Part shown: piece after piece, positions 3,636-58,284 of the stretch
Position numbering within the stretch: position 1 is the stretch's first letter
How the letters are laid out: each line of letters begins with the position of its first letter
Assembly (NCBI RefSeq): GCF_012726235.1
Contig: NZ_JAASAH010000015.1
Coordinates: 1-64,000, forward strand
DNA length: 64,000 nt
DNA from: Streptomyces sp. HNM0574
GTDB taxonomy: Bacteria; Actinomycetota; Actinomycetes; Streptomycetales; Streptomycetaceae
Direction of reading: 5' to 3'
The notes under the pieces: generated by a model
Told to the model about the DNA's origin: nothing
The model's input: the letters and a program-made list of their open reading frames with translations, nothing else
The model's database searches: none
Made by a program: the position numbers and the translations under genes

Positions 3636-4138
3636 GCCCGTCCCCCGACCGCAGCTCCACCCGCTTCCCCGTCGCCGTCGACGACGCGCTCAACGCCGCG
3701 GGCTGGCACCCCGGACGCTGGGACATACGGCAGGCCGAGCACTGGGCCGACGTCCTCCGCGAACACACCACCCCCGCCGGCCACACCCACGCCGTCTTCC
3801 CCGCCGCCGTCGAGGTCTGGGCCGAGTTCGGCACCCTCGACATCGCCCCCACGGGCCCCGGCCGCCACATCGCCCCCGTCACGCTCCGCGTCGACCCGCT
3901 GCCCGCGCTGCACGCGGCCCGCACCCTCTCCGACCTCGGACGCACCCTCGGCACCGGCATCTGCCCCCTCGGCACCGAACGCGACAGCCGAGCCCTCGTC
4001 TGCACCGACACCCGCGGCCGCGTCTACAGCATCGACCACACCGGCGACTGGTACCTCGGCCCCGACTTCGACACCGCCCTCTCCGCCCTCATCACCGGCA
4101 ACCAGCCCACCCGGCTCACGCTGCCCGCGGACACCTGA
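3632..4138 (+). CDS. SUKH-3 family immunity-like protein
   Basis: A 168-residue protein read from TTG 3632, which overlaps the deaminase stop by 4 bases (TTGA) and follows AGGAGG at good spacing; no ATG fits as well. The pattern FPVAVDDALNAAGWHPGRW near the N-terminus and the C-terminal RVYSIDHTGDWYLGPDFDTALSALI are typical of SUKH-3 proteins. SUKH-3 members commonly sit next to YwqJ-type deaminases and are presumed to neutralise or bind them. Coupled translation here supports fixed stoichiometry with the deaminase. Immunity function is inferred from family and context. Confidence 0.82.
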   Translation: MSPSPDRSSTRFPVAVDDALNAAGWHPGRWDIRQAEHWADVLREHTTPAGHTHAVFPAAVEVWAEFGTLDIAPTGPGRHIAPVTLRVDPLPALHAARTLSDLGRTLGTGICPLGTERDSRALVCTDTRGRVYSIDHTGDWYLGPDFDTALSALITGNQPTRLTLPADT

Positions 4139-4159
4139 CGGGCGGAGGACGCCCCCGCC

Positions 4160-5605
4160 TCAGCCGCGGTCCGGGATCACCGCCGACACCCGGAACCCCC
4201 CGGCGTCCGTCGCCCCCGAGACGAAACCGCCGCCCAGCGACGTCACCCGCTCCCGCATACCGACCAGACCGTTGCCGCCGCTCGGCAGCCCCGCGTCCCC
4301 GGCACCGGCACCCTCACCCGGCGGCTCGTTCTCCACCTGCACCGCGACCTCGCCCGCACGGTGCGCCAGCCGCACCCGCGCCCGCGCCCCCGCCGCGTGC
4401 TTGTGCACGTTCGTCAACGCCTCCTGCACCACCCGGAACGCCGTCTGCTCCACCGCGGCCGCATAGCACCTCGGCTCCCCCTCCACCGAGAAATCCACCA
4501 CCATCCCCGCCGTACGCGACTGCCCCACCAGCACATCCAGCTCCTCCAGCGAAGGCCCGGCCACCTCACCGTCCCCCTCACCGGCAACCTCCCCCGGAAC
4601 GTCCGCACCCCCGGCCGGACCCCCGGACTGCCCCTCGGCACCGCCCGAAGCCCCCGCACCCCGGCCCGAGGACGACGCCGCGAACTCCGCCAGCCGCGCC
4701 GGAACCTCCGACGCCCCCGACGCACGCCCCCCACCGGACGCACCGGCGCCCTCCGCCTCCGCACCGTCCATCTCGTCCGCCCGCAGCACACCCAGCATCG
4801 TCCGCAGCTCCGACAGCGCCTGCCGCCCCATGTCCCCCACCAGCTGCGCGTTCTTCGACGCCTTCTCCGGGTCCTTCAACGCCACCGCCTGCAACGCCGC
4901 CGCGTGCACCACCATCAACGACACCCGGTGCGCCACCACGTCGTGCATCTCCCGCGCGATCCGGTGCCGCTCCTCACTCCGCGCCCACTCGGCCCGCTCC
5001 TCCGCACGCTCGGCCAGCAGCGCCAGCTCACCCTCCAGCCCCTGCGCCCGCTCCCGCAGCGACTCCACCAGCCGCCGCCGCGCCCCCACGTACAGACCCA
5101 GCAGCACCGGCGGCGCCGACAGACCCAGCGACATCACCACCGACACCAGCGGAATCAGCCACGACGGCGGATCGAAATCCGGGTCCCGCCCCATGCTCTG
5201 ATGCATCCGCACAAAGGTGATCACCAGCGTGCCCACCGCCTGCATCCCCGACAGCAACGCGATGATCCGCCGCGGCACGTCCGAGGCCGCCAGCGAGTAC
5301 AGGCCCACCACGCCGAGCAGGAAACCCATCTCCGTCGGCGTCACCGCGATCGCCACCAGCACCACGGCCACCGGCCAGCGACGCCGCAGCACCAGCACCG
5401 ACCCGACGACCACGCCCAGCACGACCCCGGCCCACACCGGAAGCCCCGCCTCCTCGGCGAAACCCACGCCCTGCCAGCCGCACTCCCCCGCCGACGCCAC
5501 CGCCAGGGAGACATCCAGCGCCGCACCACGCCGCCGCTCCCACCACAGCGGCCCGCCGCCCTCGGCGGCCGCTCCGACGGCCCGGCCATCCCCCGTCTCG
5601 GTCAT
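4160..5605 (-). CDS. NarL-type sensor histidine kinase (orphan)
   Basis: A 481-residue membrane histidine kinase from ATG 5605. Residues about 28-178 contain several hydrophobic segments forming the sensor. A coiled stretch leads to a HisKA_3 dimerisation box with phosphoacceptor His221 (REMHDVVAHRVSLM). The HATPase_c region has the N-box EALTNVHKHA and G-box GNGLVGMRERV. Between them lies an unusual insertion of about 70 residues of Gly/Ala/Ser/Glu low complexity. These kinases normally pair with a LuxR-type response regulator, but none is adjacent: the left neighbour is convergent and the right one divergent. The signal is unknown. Confidence 0.9.
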   Translation of the reverse strand: MTETGDGRAVGAAAEGGGPLWWERRRGAALDVSLAVASAGECGWQGVGFAEEAGLPVWAGVVLGVVVGSVLVLRRRWPVAVVLVAIAVTPTEMGFLLGVVGLYSLAASDVPRRIIALLSGMQAVGTLVITFVRMHQSMGRDPDFDPPSWLIPLVSVVMSLGLSAPPVLLGLYVGARRRLVESLRERAQGLEGELALLAERAEERAEWARSEERHRIAREMHDVVAHRVSLMVVHAAALQAVALKDPEKASKNAQLVGDMGRQALSELRTMLGVLRADEMDGAEAEGAGASGGGRASGASEVPARLAEFAASSSGRGAGASGGAEGQSGGPAGGADVPGEVAGEGDGEVAGPSLEELDVLVGQSRTAGMVVDFSVEGEPRCYAAAVEQTAFRVVQEALTNVHKHAAGARARVRLAHRAGEVAVQVENEPPGEGAGAGDAGLPSGGNGLVGMRERVTSLGGGFVSGATDAGGFRVSAVIPDRG

Positions 5606-52282: not shown

Positions 52283-53494
52283 TCAGAGGCAGGTGGCCAG
52301 GGCGCGGACGAGGGCCTCGGCGCGCGGGTCGGAGGTGACGGACTGCTGGAGCCCGCCCGTCACGTAGCCGAAGGCGATCCGGGACTCGGGGTCGGCGAAG
52401 CCGAGGGAGCCGCCGCGTCCGGGGTGGCCGAAGGAGCCGGGGCCGAGCATCGGCGCCGAGGGCCCGTGCAGCATGAAGCCGAGCCCGAAGCGGGTGCCGA
52501 CGACCAGGACCCGGTCGGGTCCGGCGGACTCCTCGGAGCGGGCCTGGGTGAGCGTCGCCGGGGTGAACAGCCGCGGCGCCCCGGGCAGCGGGCCGATCAG
52601 CGAGGCGTAGAAGCGGGACAGCCCGCGCGCGGTGGCGACCCCGGCGGAGGAGGGCAACTCGGCCGCGCGGTAGGCCGGATCGTTCTCGTCCGGATGCGGG
52701 GTGATGACGGCGAAGGCGCGCCGGGTCAGCGAGTCCGGGTCGCTCCAGGCCGCCGTCACGGACGGCTTGGGCCGCACCCGCAGACCGGGCCCGGCGGGCG
52801 TCTCGGGGGTGGGCACGTCGTGGACGGGGGCGACGCGTCCGGCGCCCTCGACCTCGGGCGGCAGGCCCATCCACAGGTCGAGCCCGTAGGGGCGGGCGAC
52901 CTCCTCGTCGAACCAGCGGCCGATGGTGCGGCCGGTGGCCCGGCGGACGACCTCGGCCAGCAGCCAGCCGTAGGTCTGCGCGTGGTAGCCGTGCGTGGTG
53001 CCGGGCTCCCAGGCGAGGCCCTGGGCGGCGAGCGCGGCGGGCCCGCTGACGCCGTCGACGGCCTCGGCCGGGGTGAGCGGCACGTCCAGCACGGGCAGTC
53101 CGGCGCGGTGCGAGAGCAGGTGGCGGACGAGGACGCGGTCCTTGCCGTTGGCCTTGAACTCGGGCCAGTAGGTGCCGACCGGCGCGTCCAGGTCGAGGCG
53201 TCCGCGCTGGTGCAGGATGTGCAGCACGGCGGCGGCCGGGCCCTTGGTGGCGGAGCGGACTATGGCGGCGGTGCCGGCGTCCCAGGCGGAGCCGGCGCCC
53301 GTGGTGCCGCCCCACAGGTCGACGACCGGCTCGCCGTCCCGGTGGACGGTCAGCGAGGCGCCGGTGTCCCCGCGCTCCTCGAAGTTCCGGATGAAGGCGT
53401 CCCGGACCGGCTCATAACCGTCCGCCACCGTGCCCTGGACGTCGACCACGTTTCCTTCGCTCCCGCCGTTTTCGGTCTGCTGTGCACCATCCAT
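52283..53494 (-). CDS. Serine beta-lactamase-like hydrolase (class C/EstB type)
   Basis: A 403-residue cytoplasmic-looking enzyme from ATG 53494. The nucleophile motif is SATK (VRSATKGPAAAVLH). The Tyr motif lies in YHAQTYGWLLAEVV. HPGRGGSLGFADPES near the C-terminus corresponds to the third box. Lack of a signal peptide and the EstB-like sequence favour an esterase or peptidase over an antibiotic-degrading lactamase. It is downstream of the sigma-4/zinc-finger gene on the same strand, 85 bp away. Confidence 0.88.
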   Translation of the reverse strand: MDGAQQTENGGSEGNVVDVQGTVADGYEPVRDAFIRNFEERGDTGASLTVHRDGEPVVDLWGGTTGAGSAWDAGTAAIVRSATKGPAAAVLHILHQRGRLDLDAPVGTYWPEFKANGKDRVLVRHLLSHRAGLPVLDVPLTPAEAVDGVSGPAALAAQGLAWEPGTTHGYHAQTYGWLLAEVVRRATGRTIGRWFDEEVARPYGLDLWMGLPPEVEGAGRVAPVHDVPTPETPAGPGLRVRPKPSVTAAWSDPDSLTRRAFAVITPHPDENDPAYRAAELPSSAGVATARGLSRFYASLIGPLPGAPRLFTPATLTQARSEESAGPDRVLVVGTRFGLGFMLHGPSAPMLGPGSFGHPGRGGSLGFADPESRIAFGYVTGGLQQSVTSDPRAEALVRALATCL

Positions 53495-53579: not shown

Positions 53580-54125
53580 TCAGCCGGGCGGTCGGGCCGG
53601 GGCCGCGCGGGTGCCGAAGCGGAGCGGGCCGAGGACCACGCCGGTGCCGGTCCCGCGCCCGCCCAACGGGCGCAGGCCGGCGCCGTCTTCGGCCGAGGAC
53701 AGCTCCAGCAGCGCGGCGGTGACCGGGATGCGCCGCCCGGCGCGGGCCAGCGCCCGCGCGCGCTCCCGGCAGTCCGCGCAGCCGGCGAGGTGCGCGTCGA
53801 GGGCCTGGGTGGCGCGGACGGAGGCGGCTCCCCTGGCGTACGCGGGCAGCCTGGCCCAGTGCGGCGCGCACGCGGGGCCGAGCGGGGCTCCGGGCTGTTC
53901 CCGCAGGTACGCCTGGCGGACGCCTTCGCGGGCGCGGTGCAGCAGCAGGACCGTCACGTCGGGTCCGGTGCCGAGTCTGCGGCTGATCTCCTCGGCGGAG
54001 GCGCCCTCGATCTCCGCGAGCCACAGGGCCTTCACCTGCTCCTCGGGCATCCGCCGCAGCAGCCGCACCAGCAGCCCCACGCCGCCCGCGCCGCCGGTCC
54101 GGTGATCCGTTCCGTGGTCCGTCAT
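53580..54125 (-). CDS. Sigma-region-4-like protein with C-terminal zinc-finger motif
   Basis: A 181-residue protein from ATG 54125 (AGGAGC upstream). Residues about 18-75 form a sigma-70 region-4 HTH (MPEEQVKALWLAEIEGASAEEISRRLGTGPDVTVLLLHRAREGVRQAYL). There is no region 2, so it cannot be a complete sigma factor. The second half carries HLAGCADCRERAR, the HxxxCxxC of anti-sigma (HC2) zinc fingers. A regulator combining DNA-binding and anti-sigma-like parts is inferred. It is divergent from ssgE across two palindromes. Confidence 0.75.
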   Translation of the reverse strand: MTDHGTDHRTGGAGGVGLLVRLLRRMPEEQVKALWLAEIEGASAEEISRRLGTGPDVTVLLLHRAREGVRQAYLREQPGAPLGPACAPHWARLPAYARGAASVRATQALDAHLAGCADCRERARALARAGRRIPVTAALLELSSAEDGAGLRPLGGRGTGTGVVLGPLRFGTRAAPARPPG

Positions 54126-54198
54126 CGGGGAGCTCCTGTCCGTGAGCACTGATCAAGACCCGTACGTACCGAATGTCCTCTTTGAGAGTGTGGGGGGT

Positions 54199-54218
54199 CA
54201 CAGCCCGATCGGTCTGTG
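54199..54218. promoter_or_regulatory. 20-bp palindrome upstream of ssgE
   Basis: CACAGCCCGATCGGTCTGTG is symmetrical except for one base pair (positions 6 and 15). It lies between the divergent sigma-4/zinc-finger gene and ssgE. Confidence 0.65.
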
Positions 54219-54270
54219 GTGTACCTCACCCCGGCCCCCGCGTGACTCTCCCGGCGCGCCGCACGTCTGT

Positions 54271-54288
54271 CACAGCGAAGGGACTGTG
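54271..54288. promoter_or_regulatory. Second CACAG...CTGTG palindrome upstream of ssgE
   Basis: CACAG-CGAAGGGA-CTGTG lies 26 bp before the ssgE start. It shares both arms with the palindrome at 54199-54218 but has an 8-bp instead of 10-bp spacer. Confidence 0.5.
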
Positions 54289-54313
54289 CGTCCCGACCGC
54301 TTAAGGAGTCACG

Positions 54314-54715
54314 ATGTCCGCAGTCATCGACCACACCGTCTCGGCCCAGCTGCTCGCGGAGCGCCCCCGGACGCTGTCCACGGTGCTCCGCTTCACGACG
54401 TGCGATCCGCTCGCCGTGCAGCTGCGCTTCGCGGCGGACGCGTCGCTGGACGGGACCGAGGTCGTGTGGACCTTCGGGCGGGAGCTGCTGGAGGCGGGCA
54501 CGCACGCGCCCTCCGGCGAGGGCGACGTGCACATCCGGCCCGACGCCCCGGGCCGGACGGTGATCGAGCTGCACTCGCCGCAGGGCGTCGCCGTCCTGGA
54601 GTTCCCCACGGCCGCGCTCCGCCACTTCCTGACCCGCAGCTACGCGGCCGCGCCCGACGGCCAGGGCCACCCGGAACTCGACAGCGCGCTCACGGCCCTG
54701 CTCCGCGGCGTCTGA
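54314..54715 (+). CDS. ssgE: SsgA-like sporulation protein, SsgE
   Basis: A 133-residue SALP from ATG 54314 after AAGGAG. Diagnostic strings are LSTVLRFTTCDPLAVQLRFAAD, VVWTFGRELLEAGTHAPSGEGDVHIRP and VIELHSPQGVAVLEFP. SALPs are confined to sporulating actinomycetes and steer septum placement and spore-wall events. SsgE is linked to spore separation/autolysis in S. coelicolor (SCO3158). Assignment to SsgE rests on its position near pmt and the PBP genes. Confidence 0.88.
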   Translation: MSAVIDHTVSAQLLAERPRTLSTVLRFTTCDPLAVQLRFAADASLDGTEVVWTFGRELLEAGTHAPSGEGDVHIRPDAPGRTVIELHSPQGVAVLEFPTAALRHFLTRSYAAAPDGQGHPELDSALTALLRGV

Positions 54716-54789: not shown

Positions 54790-57700
54790 ATGGGACGGGT
54801 GACGGACCGACGCGCGAGAGACGACCGGCAGGCGGCGCACAGGGACGGACCCGGCTCGTACCTGCGCCAGCCGCACCTCCACGGCGACCTGGTCTGCTTC
54901 GCCGCCGAGGACGACCTGTGGGTCGCCCCGATCTCCCCGCACGGCGGCCCGGACCCCGCACCGGGACCGCTCCAGGCGCGGCGGCTGACCGTCGACCGCA
55001 CCCGCATCGGCTTCCCCCGCTTCTCGCCGGACGGCACCGGCATCGCGTACACGTCCTGGCGCAGCCTCGACCCCGAGGTGTACCTGGTGCCCGTGGACGG
55101 CGGCCCGGCCCGCCGGCTCACCTACTGGGGCGCCACCGACACCCGGGTGTGCGGCTGGACCCCCGAGGGCGACGTGCTGGCCGTCGCCTCGCACGGGCAG
55201 CCGTTCTCGCACTTCACCTGGTCCTACCGGCTGCCCGTCGACGGCAGCCCCGGCAGCCGCCTGCCCTGGGGCCCGGTCTCCGACATCGCCGTCGCCGAGC
55301 TGGAGGGCAAGCGCCGCACCCTGCTGCTGACGGGGACGCCGCCGCACGAGCCCGCCTCGTGGAAGCGGTACCGGGGCGGCGCCACCGGCCGGATGTGGCT
55401 GCACGGCGAGCAGCTGCTGGCCGGTCTCGGCGGGCACCTGGAGTCGGTGATGTTCGTCGGCGCGCGGATCGCGTTCCTCTCCGACCACGAGGGCATCGGC
55501 AACCTGTACTCCTGCCGCCCCGACGGCTCCGACCTGCGACGGCACACCGACCACGACCGCTTCTACGCCCGGCACGCGGCCACCGACGGACGCCGCGTCG
55601 TCTACCAGTGCGCGGGCGAGCTCTGGCTCGTCGACGACTTCGCCGCCGCGGCCGGCCCCCGCCGCCTCGACATCACCCTCGGCGGCGCCCGCACCGGCCG
55701 CCGCCCGTACCAGGTCCCGGCCGCCGCGCACGTCGAGTCGCTCGCCGTGGACGCGACGGGCCGGGCCAGCGCGGTCTGCGTGCGCGGCAGCCTGTACTGG
55801 CTCACCCACCGCGACGGCCCGGCCCGGATCATCGCCGACACCCCGGGCGTCCGGGTGCGGCTGCCGGAGATGCTCGGCGGCACCGGCGCGATCGCGTACG
55901 TCACCGACGCGGAGGGCGAGGACGCCGTCGAGATCGCCGACCTCCCCCGCGCCCTGCGGGCCAGGCCGCCGCGCCGCCTCGCGGCCGGGCGCCTCGGCCG
56001 GGTACGGGAGCTGGTCGCCTCACCGGACGGGGCGACGCTCGCGCTCGCCTCGCACGACGGGCGGCTGCTGCTGCTCGACGCGCGCCCGCCCGGGGACGGC
56101 GGCCCGGCGGAGGGCGAGGACCCCGTCACGGAGCTGATCCGCTCGCTCAACGGCCCGGTGCACGACCTCGCCTTCTCGCCCGACTCGCGCTGGCTGGCGT
56201 GGGCACACCCCGGGGTCGGCCGCTCGCTCAGCCAGATCAAGATCGCGAAGCTGGGTGCGAGCGCGCCCACCCGGCTCACCCAGGTCGCGGGGCCCGGCGA
56301 GGACGCGATGCCCGGGACCGCGACGGCGACCGCCGCCTCCTGCACCGTCCTCGACGTCACCGACGGCCGGTTCGAGGACGAGCAGCCCGTCTTCACCCGC
56401 GACGGCCGCTACCTCGCCTTCCTCTCCTGGCGCGGCTTCGACCCGGTGTACGACGTGCACACCGGCGACCTGTCCTTCCCGCTCGGCTGCCGCCCCTACC
56501 TCGTCCCCCTCTCCTCCGCGACGCCCTCGCCGTTCGCGCTCTCGCCGGAGGGCCGCCCGGCGGCCGGGGGGCTCGACCCGCAGGACGCCGGCCCCGCCGG
56601 GCAGGAGGAGGGCGCGGTGCTGGTGGAGGCGGAGGGGCTGGCGAGCCGGGTGACGCCGTTCCCCGTCACCGCGTCCAAGTACTCCTCGCTGCGGCCCGTC
56701 GCGGGCGGCGGGCTGCTGTGGCTGCGCTACCCGATCTCCGGCGCGCTCGGCGAGACCTTCGCCAACCCGGCCGACACCTCGGGCCGCCCCACCCTGGAAC
56801 ACTTCGACCTGACCAAGGCCAAACGCTCCGAACTGACCGCCGACGCCGACCAGTTCGCCGTCAGCGGCGACGGCAGCCGGATCGTGGTGAGCGCCGAGGG
56901 CGAACTGCGCGCCGTCCCCGCGTACGAGCCGCCGGACGCGGACACCGTCGCGTACATCGACATGCGCCGCATCCTGCACGACGTGGACCCGCCCTCCGAG
57001 TGGCGGCAGGCGTTCGAGGAGGCGGGGCGGCTGATCCGGGCCTACTTCTGGGAGCCCGGCATGTGCGGCATCGACTGGGACGGGGTGCTCGCGCAGTACC
57101 GTCCGCTGGTCGAACGCGTCGCCTCCCCCGACGAGTTCGCCGACCTGCTCCGCGAGGTGCTGGGCGAACTGGGCACCTCGCACGCCTACGTCAGCCCGGC
57201 CCGCCGCAACGAGGGGCCGCCGCACTACCAGCGCCCCATCGGCCTGCTCGGCGCCAACCTCAGCCACAGCCAGGACGGCGAGTGGATCGTCTCCCGCGTC
57301 CTGCCCGGCGACTCCTCCGACTCCAAGGCCCGCTCCCCGCTGGCCGGTTCGGGCATCCGGGAGGGCGCGGTGCTCACCCACGTCGACGGCCGTCCCGTCG
57401 ACCCCGTCACCGGCCCGGGACCGCTGCTCGCGGCGGCGGGCGGCACCACCGTCGAACTCTCCTTCACCCAGCCCGAACCCGGCGCGCGGGACGGGGAATC
57501 GGACGAGGAGAGCGAGGAGGACGAGGAGCCCGCGCCGCGCCCGCCCCGGCCGCAGCGCCGCGTGGCCGTCGTCCCGCTGATCGACGAACGGCCGCTGCGC
57601 TACCAGGACTGGGTGGCCAGACGCCGCCGCGTGGTCCGCGAGATGAGCGGCGGCAAGTGCGGCTACCTGCACATCCCCGACCTGGGCGGCTCCGGCTGGG

Positions 57701-58284
57701 CCCAGTTCAACCGGGACGTGCGGATGGAGGTCTCCCGCCCCGCGCTGATCGTCGACGTACGGGGCAACGCGGGCGGCAACATCAGCGAACTCGTCATCGA
57801 GAAACTGACCCGCACCATCCTCGGCTGGGACCTCACCCGCAACGCCCAGCCCGTCAGCTACACCAGCAACGCGCCGCGCGGCCCGATCGTCGCCCTCGCC
57901 GACGAACTGACCTCCTCCGACGGCGACATGATCACCGCCGCCTTCCGGCTGCTCGGCCTCGGCCCCGTCATCGGGGCGCGCACCTGGGGCGGCGTCGTCG
58001 GGATGACGGGGCGGCACCGGCTGATCGACGGCACCGTGATCACCGTGCCGATGAACGCGGCCTGGTTCGACGCGTACGGCTGGTCCGTGGAGAACCACGG
58101 GGTCTCGCCCGACATCGAGGCGATCCGGACGCCCGTCGACTGGGCCGAGGGCCGCAACGCCGTCCTGCACACCGCGATCAGCACCGCGCTCGACCTGCTG
58201 GAGCGGCACCCGGCGGCCGAACCGCCCGACTACAGCGACGTCCCCGACCGCCGCCGCCCCCACCTGCCACCGCGGCGCCGCTGA
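54790..58284 (+). CDS. Tricorn protease homologue
   Basis: A 1164-residue protease from ATG 54790 (GTG 54799 also possible). The N-terminal half comprises beta-propeller blades (SYLRQPHLHGDLVCFAAEDDLWVAP, RIGFPRFSPDGTGIAYTS). A PDZ domain lies around IGLLGANLSHSQDGEWIVSRVLPGD. The catalytic core has LGTSHAYVS (Ser-His), VDVRGNAGGN, the nucleophile Ser in ADELTSSDGDMITAAF, and Glu in SVENHGVSPD. It is cytoplasmic and degrades proteasome peptides. Length fits the family (about 1070-1170). An acidic insertion (GESDEESEEDEEPAPRPPRP) follows the PDZ region. Confidence 0.94.
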   Translation: MGRVTDRRARDDRQAAHRDGPGSYLRQPHLHGDLVCFAAEDDLWVAPISPHGGPDPAPGPLQARRLTVDRTRIGFPRFSPDGTGIAYTSWRSLDPEVYLVPVDGGPARRLTYWGATDTRVCGWTPEGDVLAVASHGQPFSHFTWSYRLPVDGSPGSRLPWGPVSDIAVAELEGKRRTLLLTGTPPHEPASWKRYRGGATGRMWLHGEQLLAGLGGHLESVMFVGARIAFLSDHEGIGNLYSCRPDGSDLRRHTDHDRFYARHAATDGRRVVYQCAGELWLVDDFAAAAGPRRLDITLGGARTGRRPYQVPAAAHVESLAVDATGRASAVCVRGSLYWLTHRDGPARIIADTPGVRVRLPEMLGGTGAIAYVTDAEGEDAVEIADLPRALRARPPRRLAAGRLGRVRELVASPDGATLALASHDGRLLLLDARPPGDGGPAEGEDPVTELIRSLNGPVHDLAFSPDSRWLAWAHPGVGRSLSQIKIAKLGASAPTRLTQVAGPGEDAMPGTATATAASCTVLDVTDGRFEDEQPVFTRDGRYLAFLSWRGFDPVYDVHTGDLSFPLGCRPYLVPLSSATPSPFALSPEGRPAAGGLDPQDAGPAGQEEGAVLVEAEGLASRVTPFPVTASKYSSLRPVAGGGLLWLRYPISGALGETFANPADTSGRPTLEHFDLTKAKRSELTADADQFAVSGDGSRIVVSAEGELRAVPAYEPPDADTVAYIDMRRILHDVDPPSEWRQAFEEAGRLIRAYFWEPGMCGIDWDGVLAQYRPLVERVASPDEFADLLREVLGELGTSHAYVSPARRNEGPPHYQRPIGLLGANLSHSQDGEWIVSRVLPGDSSDSKARSPLAGSGIREGAVLTHVDGRPVDPVTGPGPLLAAAGGTTVELSFTQPEPGARDGESDEESEEDEEPAPRPPRPQRRVAVVPLIDERPLRYQDWVARRRRVVREMSGGKCGYLHIPDLGGSGWAQFNRDVRMEVSRPALIVDVRGNAGGNISELVIEKLTRTILGWDLTRNAQPVSYTSNAPRGPIVALADELTSSDGDMITAAFRLLGLGPVIGARTWGGVVGMTGRHRLIDGTVITVPMNAAWFDAYGWSVENHGVSPDIEAIRTPVDWAEGRNAVLHTAISTALDLLERHPAAEPPDYSDVPDRRRPHLPPRRR

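Follow-up and report, generated by a model that had tools for sequence, protein, structure and literature searches.

A conserved Crp/GlxR-type box precedes the predicted ECF-type promoter of an SsgD-like gene beside a reduced sigma relative in Streptomyces sp. HNM0574

In Streptomyces coelicolor, the SALP gene ssgD (SCO6722) serves the lateral and spore walls (PMC10771440, PMC4457907), depends on SigE (PMC10771440) and not on the whi genes (PMC4457907), and encodes a protein that builds the thick spore wall (PMC5693915). Spore walls are doubled in thickness in crp mutants (PMC5693915). Streptomyces Crp has the consensus GTG(N)6GNCAC (PMC10033298), and the group I site of BldM is the 16-bp TCACcCgnncGgGTGA (PMC4125116). 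ECF52 sigma factors (SCO4117) combine a sigma domain, a zinc finger, a membrane helix, and a Pro-rich tail (PMC5826349), a layout also described in PMC8999054.

We analyzed a 64,000-nucleotide stretch of DNA from Streptomyces sp. HNM0574 (the window), in which a SALP gene and a gene for a small region-4/zinc-finger protein diverge from a 188-bp spacer (54126-54313). An earlier note had proposed that two palindromes in this spacer (P1 and P2) are operators through which the region-4/zinc-finger protein locally switches the SALP gene, which it named ssgE. The genes and spacer elements are as follows.

52283-53494, minus strand: beta-lactamase-fold esterase gene, a syntenic marker
53580-54125, minus strand: reduced ECF52-like sigma relative (181 aa; region 4 plus zf-HC2)
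53766-53858, minus strand: zf-HC2 domain of this protein (ZAS-type, HX3CX2C; residues 90-120; Pfam PF13490)
53928-54071, minus strand: sigma-70 region 4 domain of this protein (residues 19-66; Pfam PF08281)
54133-54137, minus strand: ribosome-binding site of the reduced sigma gene, AGGAG
54188-54201: upstream Crp-like box, GTGTGGGGGGTCAC, an exact GTG-N6-GNCAC; its right half (TCAC plus AG) is the left arm of P1
54199-54218: P1, a 20-bp palindrome, CACAGCCCGATCGGTCTGTG, in which 9 of 10 positions pair
54216-54229: main conserved Crp-like box, GTGGTGTACCTCAC, GTG-N8-CAC; its left half (CTGTGG) is the right arm of P1
54242-54247, plus strand: predicted -35 element, GTGACT; GGTGACT is conserved in loci L117, L114, and L098
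54264-54269, plus strand: predicted -10 element of apparent ECF type, CGTCTG, after a 16-bp spacer
54271-54288: P2, CACAG-N8-CTGTG, CACAGCGAAGGGACTGTG, with arms matching at 5 of 5 positions, at the predicted transcription start
54303-54308, plus strand: ribosome-binding site of the SALP gene, AAGGAG
54314-54715, plus strand: SsgD-family SALP gene (133 aa)
54793-58284, plus strand: tricorn-like protease gene, a syntenic marker of the ssgD locus

By family models and phylogeny, the SALP gene is SsgD-like and not a certified SsgD. Its product scored 93.8 bits against Pfam SsgA (PF04686; cut-off 25, 6e-27) and 143.2 bits over its full length against NCBIfam SsgD (NF052496), its best and sole SALP match in NCBIfam; on the latter model near relatives scored 175-177 and other family members 171-212. 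The tree placed it inside a 52-row SsgD-family clade (support 99/98) and, on a long terminal branch (0.52), in a subclade of seven (support 96/96) with G507, G350, G043, G073, G138, and G088; four of these six genomes share the tricorn protease and esterase neighbors. The gene resembles S. coelicolor ssgD (SCO6722) in having SsgD as its best named family and in its predicted ECF-like promoter elements, and differs from it in a score of 143 bits, below the curated cut-off of 185, and in belonging to a tricorn-linked subclade. The name ssgE does not agree with either assignment, as far as it could be tested. Three SALPs in total are encoded in the HNM0574 genome.

Gene content around these loci varies. 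The interval between the esterase and SALP genes holds the reduced sigma gene in the studied locus, nothing in G043, and in G507, G350, and G073 an apparent cobalt-type energy-coupling transporter cassette with a CbiM-like start, MHVPDGFI (L134:6400-9300, L135:10000-13000, and L138:11300-14300). In Streptomyces pinistramenti, two SsgD-family genes lie about 3 kb from each other (L002:513-923 and 3989-4402).

Several comparisons of upstream regions show that a conserved box with the features of an operator precedes SsgD-family genes across Streptomyces, and the earlier reading of the spacer as regulatory DNA of an SsgA-like gene is supported. First, when upstream regions were anchored on start codons, GTG[A/G]N6TCAC was found in 45 of the 52 SsgD-family regions, compared to a mean of 0.5 and a maximum of 3 in shuffles, so that conservation of this Crp-type sequence upstream of orthologous genes exceeds chance; seven members have no box within 150 bp. 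Second, the control spacings GTG-N7-CAC and GTG-N9-CAC did not occur upstream of SsgD-family genes, and among other SALPs only 1 of 29 upstream regions contained GTG-N8-CAC. Third, the main box aligned in L117, L114, L098, L093, and L105, and in an ungapped stack its distance from the downstream promoter-like elements was nearly fixed within each subclade. Finally, in G507, G350, and G073, which carry the nearest ssgD relatives, the box persists and an orthologous sigma gene is lacking, so the neighboring protein is an unlikely reader of the box. A draw of 393 Streptomyces genomes yielded no relative with an alignable spacer.

The studied spacer contains two such boxes, an arrangement reached in 0.7% of spacer shuffles and seen elsewhere only in L098, not in other near relatives; the second box lies 28 bp upstream of the main box in the studied spacer and 27 bp upstream in L098. 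The exact form GTG(N)6GNCAC occurs in 25 of the 52 SsgD-family upstream regions. In the studied spacer this strict Crp consensus is matched by the upstream box alone, the less conserved of the two; the main box reads CTCAC, without the G of GNCAC, and conforms to the relaxed GTG-N8-CAC form.

Downstream of the main box, GTGACT-N16-CGTCTG would form an ECF-type promoter for the ssgD-like gene. At the -10 position GCGTCT was present in all five aligned near relatives and ACGTCTG in the studied spacer; a scan of the spacer for sigma-70 promoters and terminators found nothing. The center of the box lies some 20 bp before the predicted -35 element, a position that would suit activation.

The conserved ssgD box is probably bound by Crp. 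The HNM0574 genome encodes a Crp orthologue (64 bits) whose best full-length matches are the actinobacterial Crp-type regulators 3i54, 3d0s, and 4byy, and it contains 103 GTGAN6TCAC sites compared to 25 for the reversed control, a fourfold difference. Like the Streptomyces Crp operator (SCO3571) and the GlxR box of Corynebacterium, GTG(N)8CAC, the box consists of inverted GTG and CAC half-sites 8 bp apart and, as predicted here, stands upstream of a promoter. It differs from the Streptomyces Crp operator in the main box, which has CTCAC instead of GNCAC, and Crp binding at ssgD is putative. We regard it as reasonably probable that a Crp/GlxR-type operator and an ECF-type promoter make up this control region, with Crp tuning ssgD and the neighbor being a reduced sigma relative that is unlikely to read the box. 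Crp-cAMP would then act at the conserved box directly upstream of the ssgD promoter, and in this SsgD-family gene the second box (54188-54201) would precede the main operator (54216-54229).

The same box might instead serve another dimeric regulator whose site resembles that of Crp, such as Rex or a further protein. The GTGA-N6-TCAC core is common to several regulator families, and Rex sites read TGTGAAC..GTTCACA. The inner AAC/GTT of Rex sites is missing from the family consensus GTGAYGCAGGTCAC, which does contain the G found in the Crp motif GTG(N)6GNCAC; this alternative is unlikely, though not negligibly so. For BldM, the TCACC and GGTGA elements of a group I site are also present downstream of the box, but its 16-bp site was not found with proper spacing in the window, and inspection of the spacer showed its TCAC and GTGA halves to be further apart than in the BldM operator.

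The palindromes themselves are real features of the spacer. P1 is the near-perfect 20-bp palindrome described earlier, and both it and P2 lie in the divergent spacer as reported. The claim of a second site with the same arms stands for the arms, whose five positions are identical in P1 and P2, and not for the geometry: the gap is 8 bp in P2 versus 10 bp in P1, which puts the half-sites out of register. CACAG-N6-12-CTGTG occurs twice in 64 kb compared to 0.28 expected, and two occurrences were reached in 2 of 100 shuffles. A 20-bp palindrome of 9/10 quality arose in 0.9% of spacer shuffles and two disjoint same-arm 5-bp sites, with any arm, in 0.17%; the window as a whole has ten 20-bp palindromes that match P1 in quality. 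RNA hairpins at P1 and P2 were no better than those of shuffles.

Conservation of the palindromes in other Streptomyces proved poor. The P1 pattern was found upstream of none of the 52 SsgD-family genes, and an 18-bp palindrome upstream of one (G447). Near orthologues retain the right arm of P1, CTGTGG, within the main box and do not retain the left arm. The arms of P2 were not found in the closest relatives, where the aligned position holds the asymmetric element GCGTCTGnCAnGGCGAAGGGGCAA. Judged by these alignments, P1 is better explained as the outward-facing half-sites of two adjacent GTG-N8-CAC boxes than as a conserved dyad, and P2 is a non-conserved dyad located at the predicted transcription start. 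As originally reported, the palindromes are ordinary.

The G447 palindrome, CACAGAGAGATCTCTGTG, is a perfect 18-bp dyad (L116 about 900-917; L121 about 1895-1912), one arm of which, TCACAG, coincides with the right half of the conserved Crp-like box. No such dyad exists at the sister locus L118, and the case parallels P1.

That an unrelated regulator uses P1, alone or with P2, as an operator specific to this lineage and separate from the Crp-like boxes is improbable. The pairing of P1 at 9 of 10 positions includes an inner CGATCG outside both boxes, as such an operator would have it, but P1 is not kept among near relatives at 57-61% protein identity, and CACAG-N8-10-CTGTG occurs at 8 sites genome-wide versus 5 for a reversed-pattern control, which is no regulon-like enrichment. 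GC3-rich open frames account for four of the six sites outside the spacer, and a repeat array for the remaining two. We therefore rejected a CACAG-CTGTG regulon in the HNM0574 genome, given a count near the control and other sites in frames and repeats. The array, in which the two matches are due to chance, consists of degenerate 26-30-nt repeats of the CCCCGCGCGTGCGGGG type, mostly at 61-nt spacing (L081:1515-2147; contig C15 about 73786-74418); it lies downstream of a decarboxylase-like gene and resembles a decayed CRISPR array.

The divergent neighbor does contain the region 4 and zinc-finger domains noted earlier; it is no ordinary helix-turn-helix repressor and instead appears as a reduced sigma relative. 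Its relatives are full-length proteins that combine region 2 and zf-HC2 with a hydrophobic stretch and a Pro-rich tail, a layout matching ECF52 (SCO4117), and we call them ECF52-like by domain layout, not by ECF classification models. Unlike ECF52, the studied protein keeps region 4 and zf-HC2 without region 2 or the tail: no remnant of region 2 was seen in the frames of the spacer, and the protein ends at 181 aa without a membrane helix or Pro-rich tail. It is about 50% identical to sigma relatives paired with ssgD-family genes and 30-40% identical to widespread paralogues. Codon-position GC of 0.81/0.63/0.94 and zinc-finger His and Cys residues invariant with respect to full-length relatives suggest that it is still a real coding gene. 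At 188 bp, the spacer falls within the range of most relatives (157-239 bp in 22 of 24 measured), so an internal deletion sparing the start region is the simplest account, and we infer that the neighbor descends in this way from a complete ECF sigma factor anchored in the membrane.

Two other homologues with regions 2 and 4 are encoded in the HNM0574 genome (C18:50444-51157 and C32:7982-8752, in open frames of 556 and 791 aa). A split sigma factor with region 2 elsewhere was considered and rejected, as every other homologue found in this genome has both regions.

Comparative data support a genuine evolutionary partnership between the sigma-4/zinc-finger gene and ssgD-family genes. In 25 of the 29 loci examined, the sigma gene and an ssgD-family gene are divergently arranged, and the distance matrices of the sigma and SsgD-family proteins correlate with r = 0.785 (0 of 2000 permutations), a value partly due to common descent of the genomes. 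On its own, sigma region 4 normally binds a -35 element as a monomer and does not recognize a dyad. Binding of P1 and P2 by the neighbor as a local switch of the SALP gene is consistent with this conserved, co-evolving pair, with the improbability of two same-arm dyads in one spacer, and with an intact region-4 helix (VLLLHRAREG), but it is very improbable: the palindromes are missing in nearly all relatives that retain a full sigma gene, the arms of P1 belong to boxes that are conserved where the sigma gene is missing, the half-sites of P1 and P2 are not in the same register, and region 4 would be expected on the -35 element. That the neighbor still works without region 2, its region 4 on the ssgD-like -35 element or the RNA polymerase flap and its zinc finger gating, is doubtful. 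If it does, a sigma factor would have turned into a sigma-derived modulator of its former target, beside a Crp operator.

The comparison shows ssgD-family genes repeatedly paired with membrane-anchored ECF sigma factors, one of which has here been cut to region 4 and a zinc finger. The conserved box suggests that cAMP-Crp directly controls ssgD, a spore-wall gene, throughout Streptomyces; if true, such control would help explain the abnormal spore walls of crp mutants.
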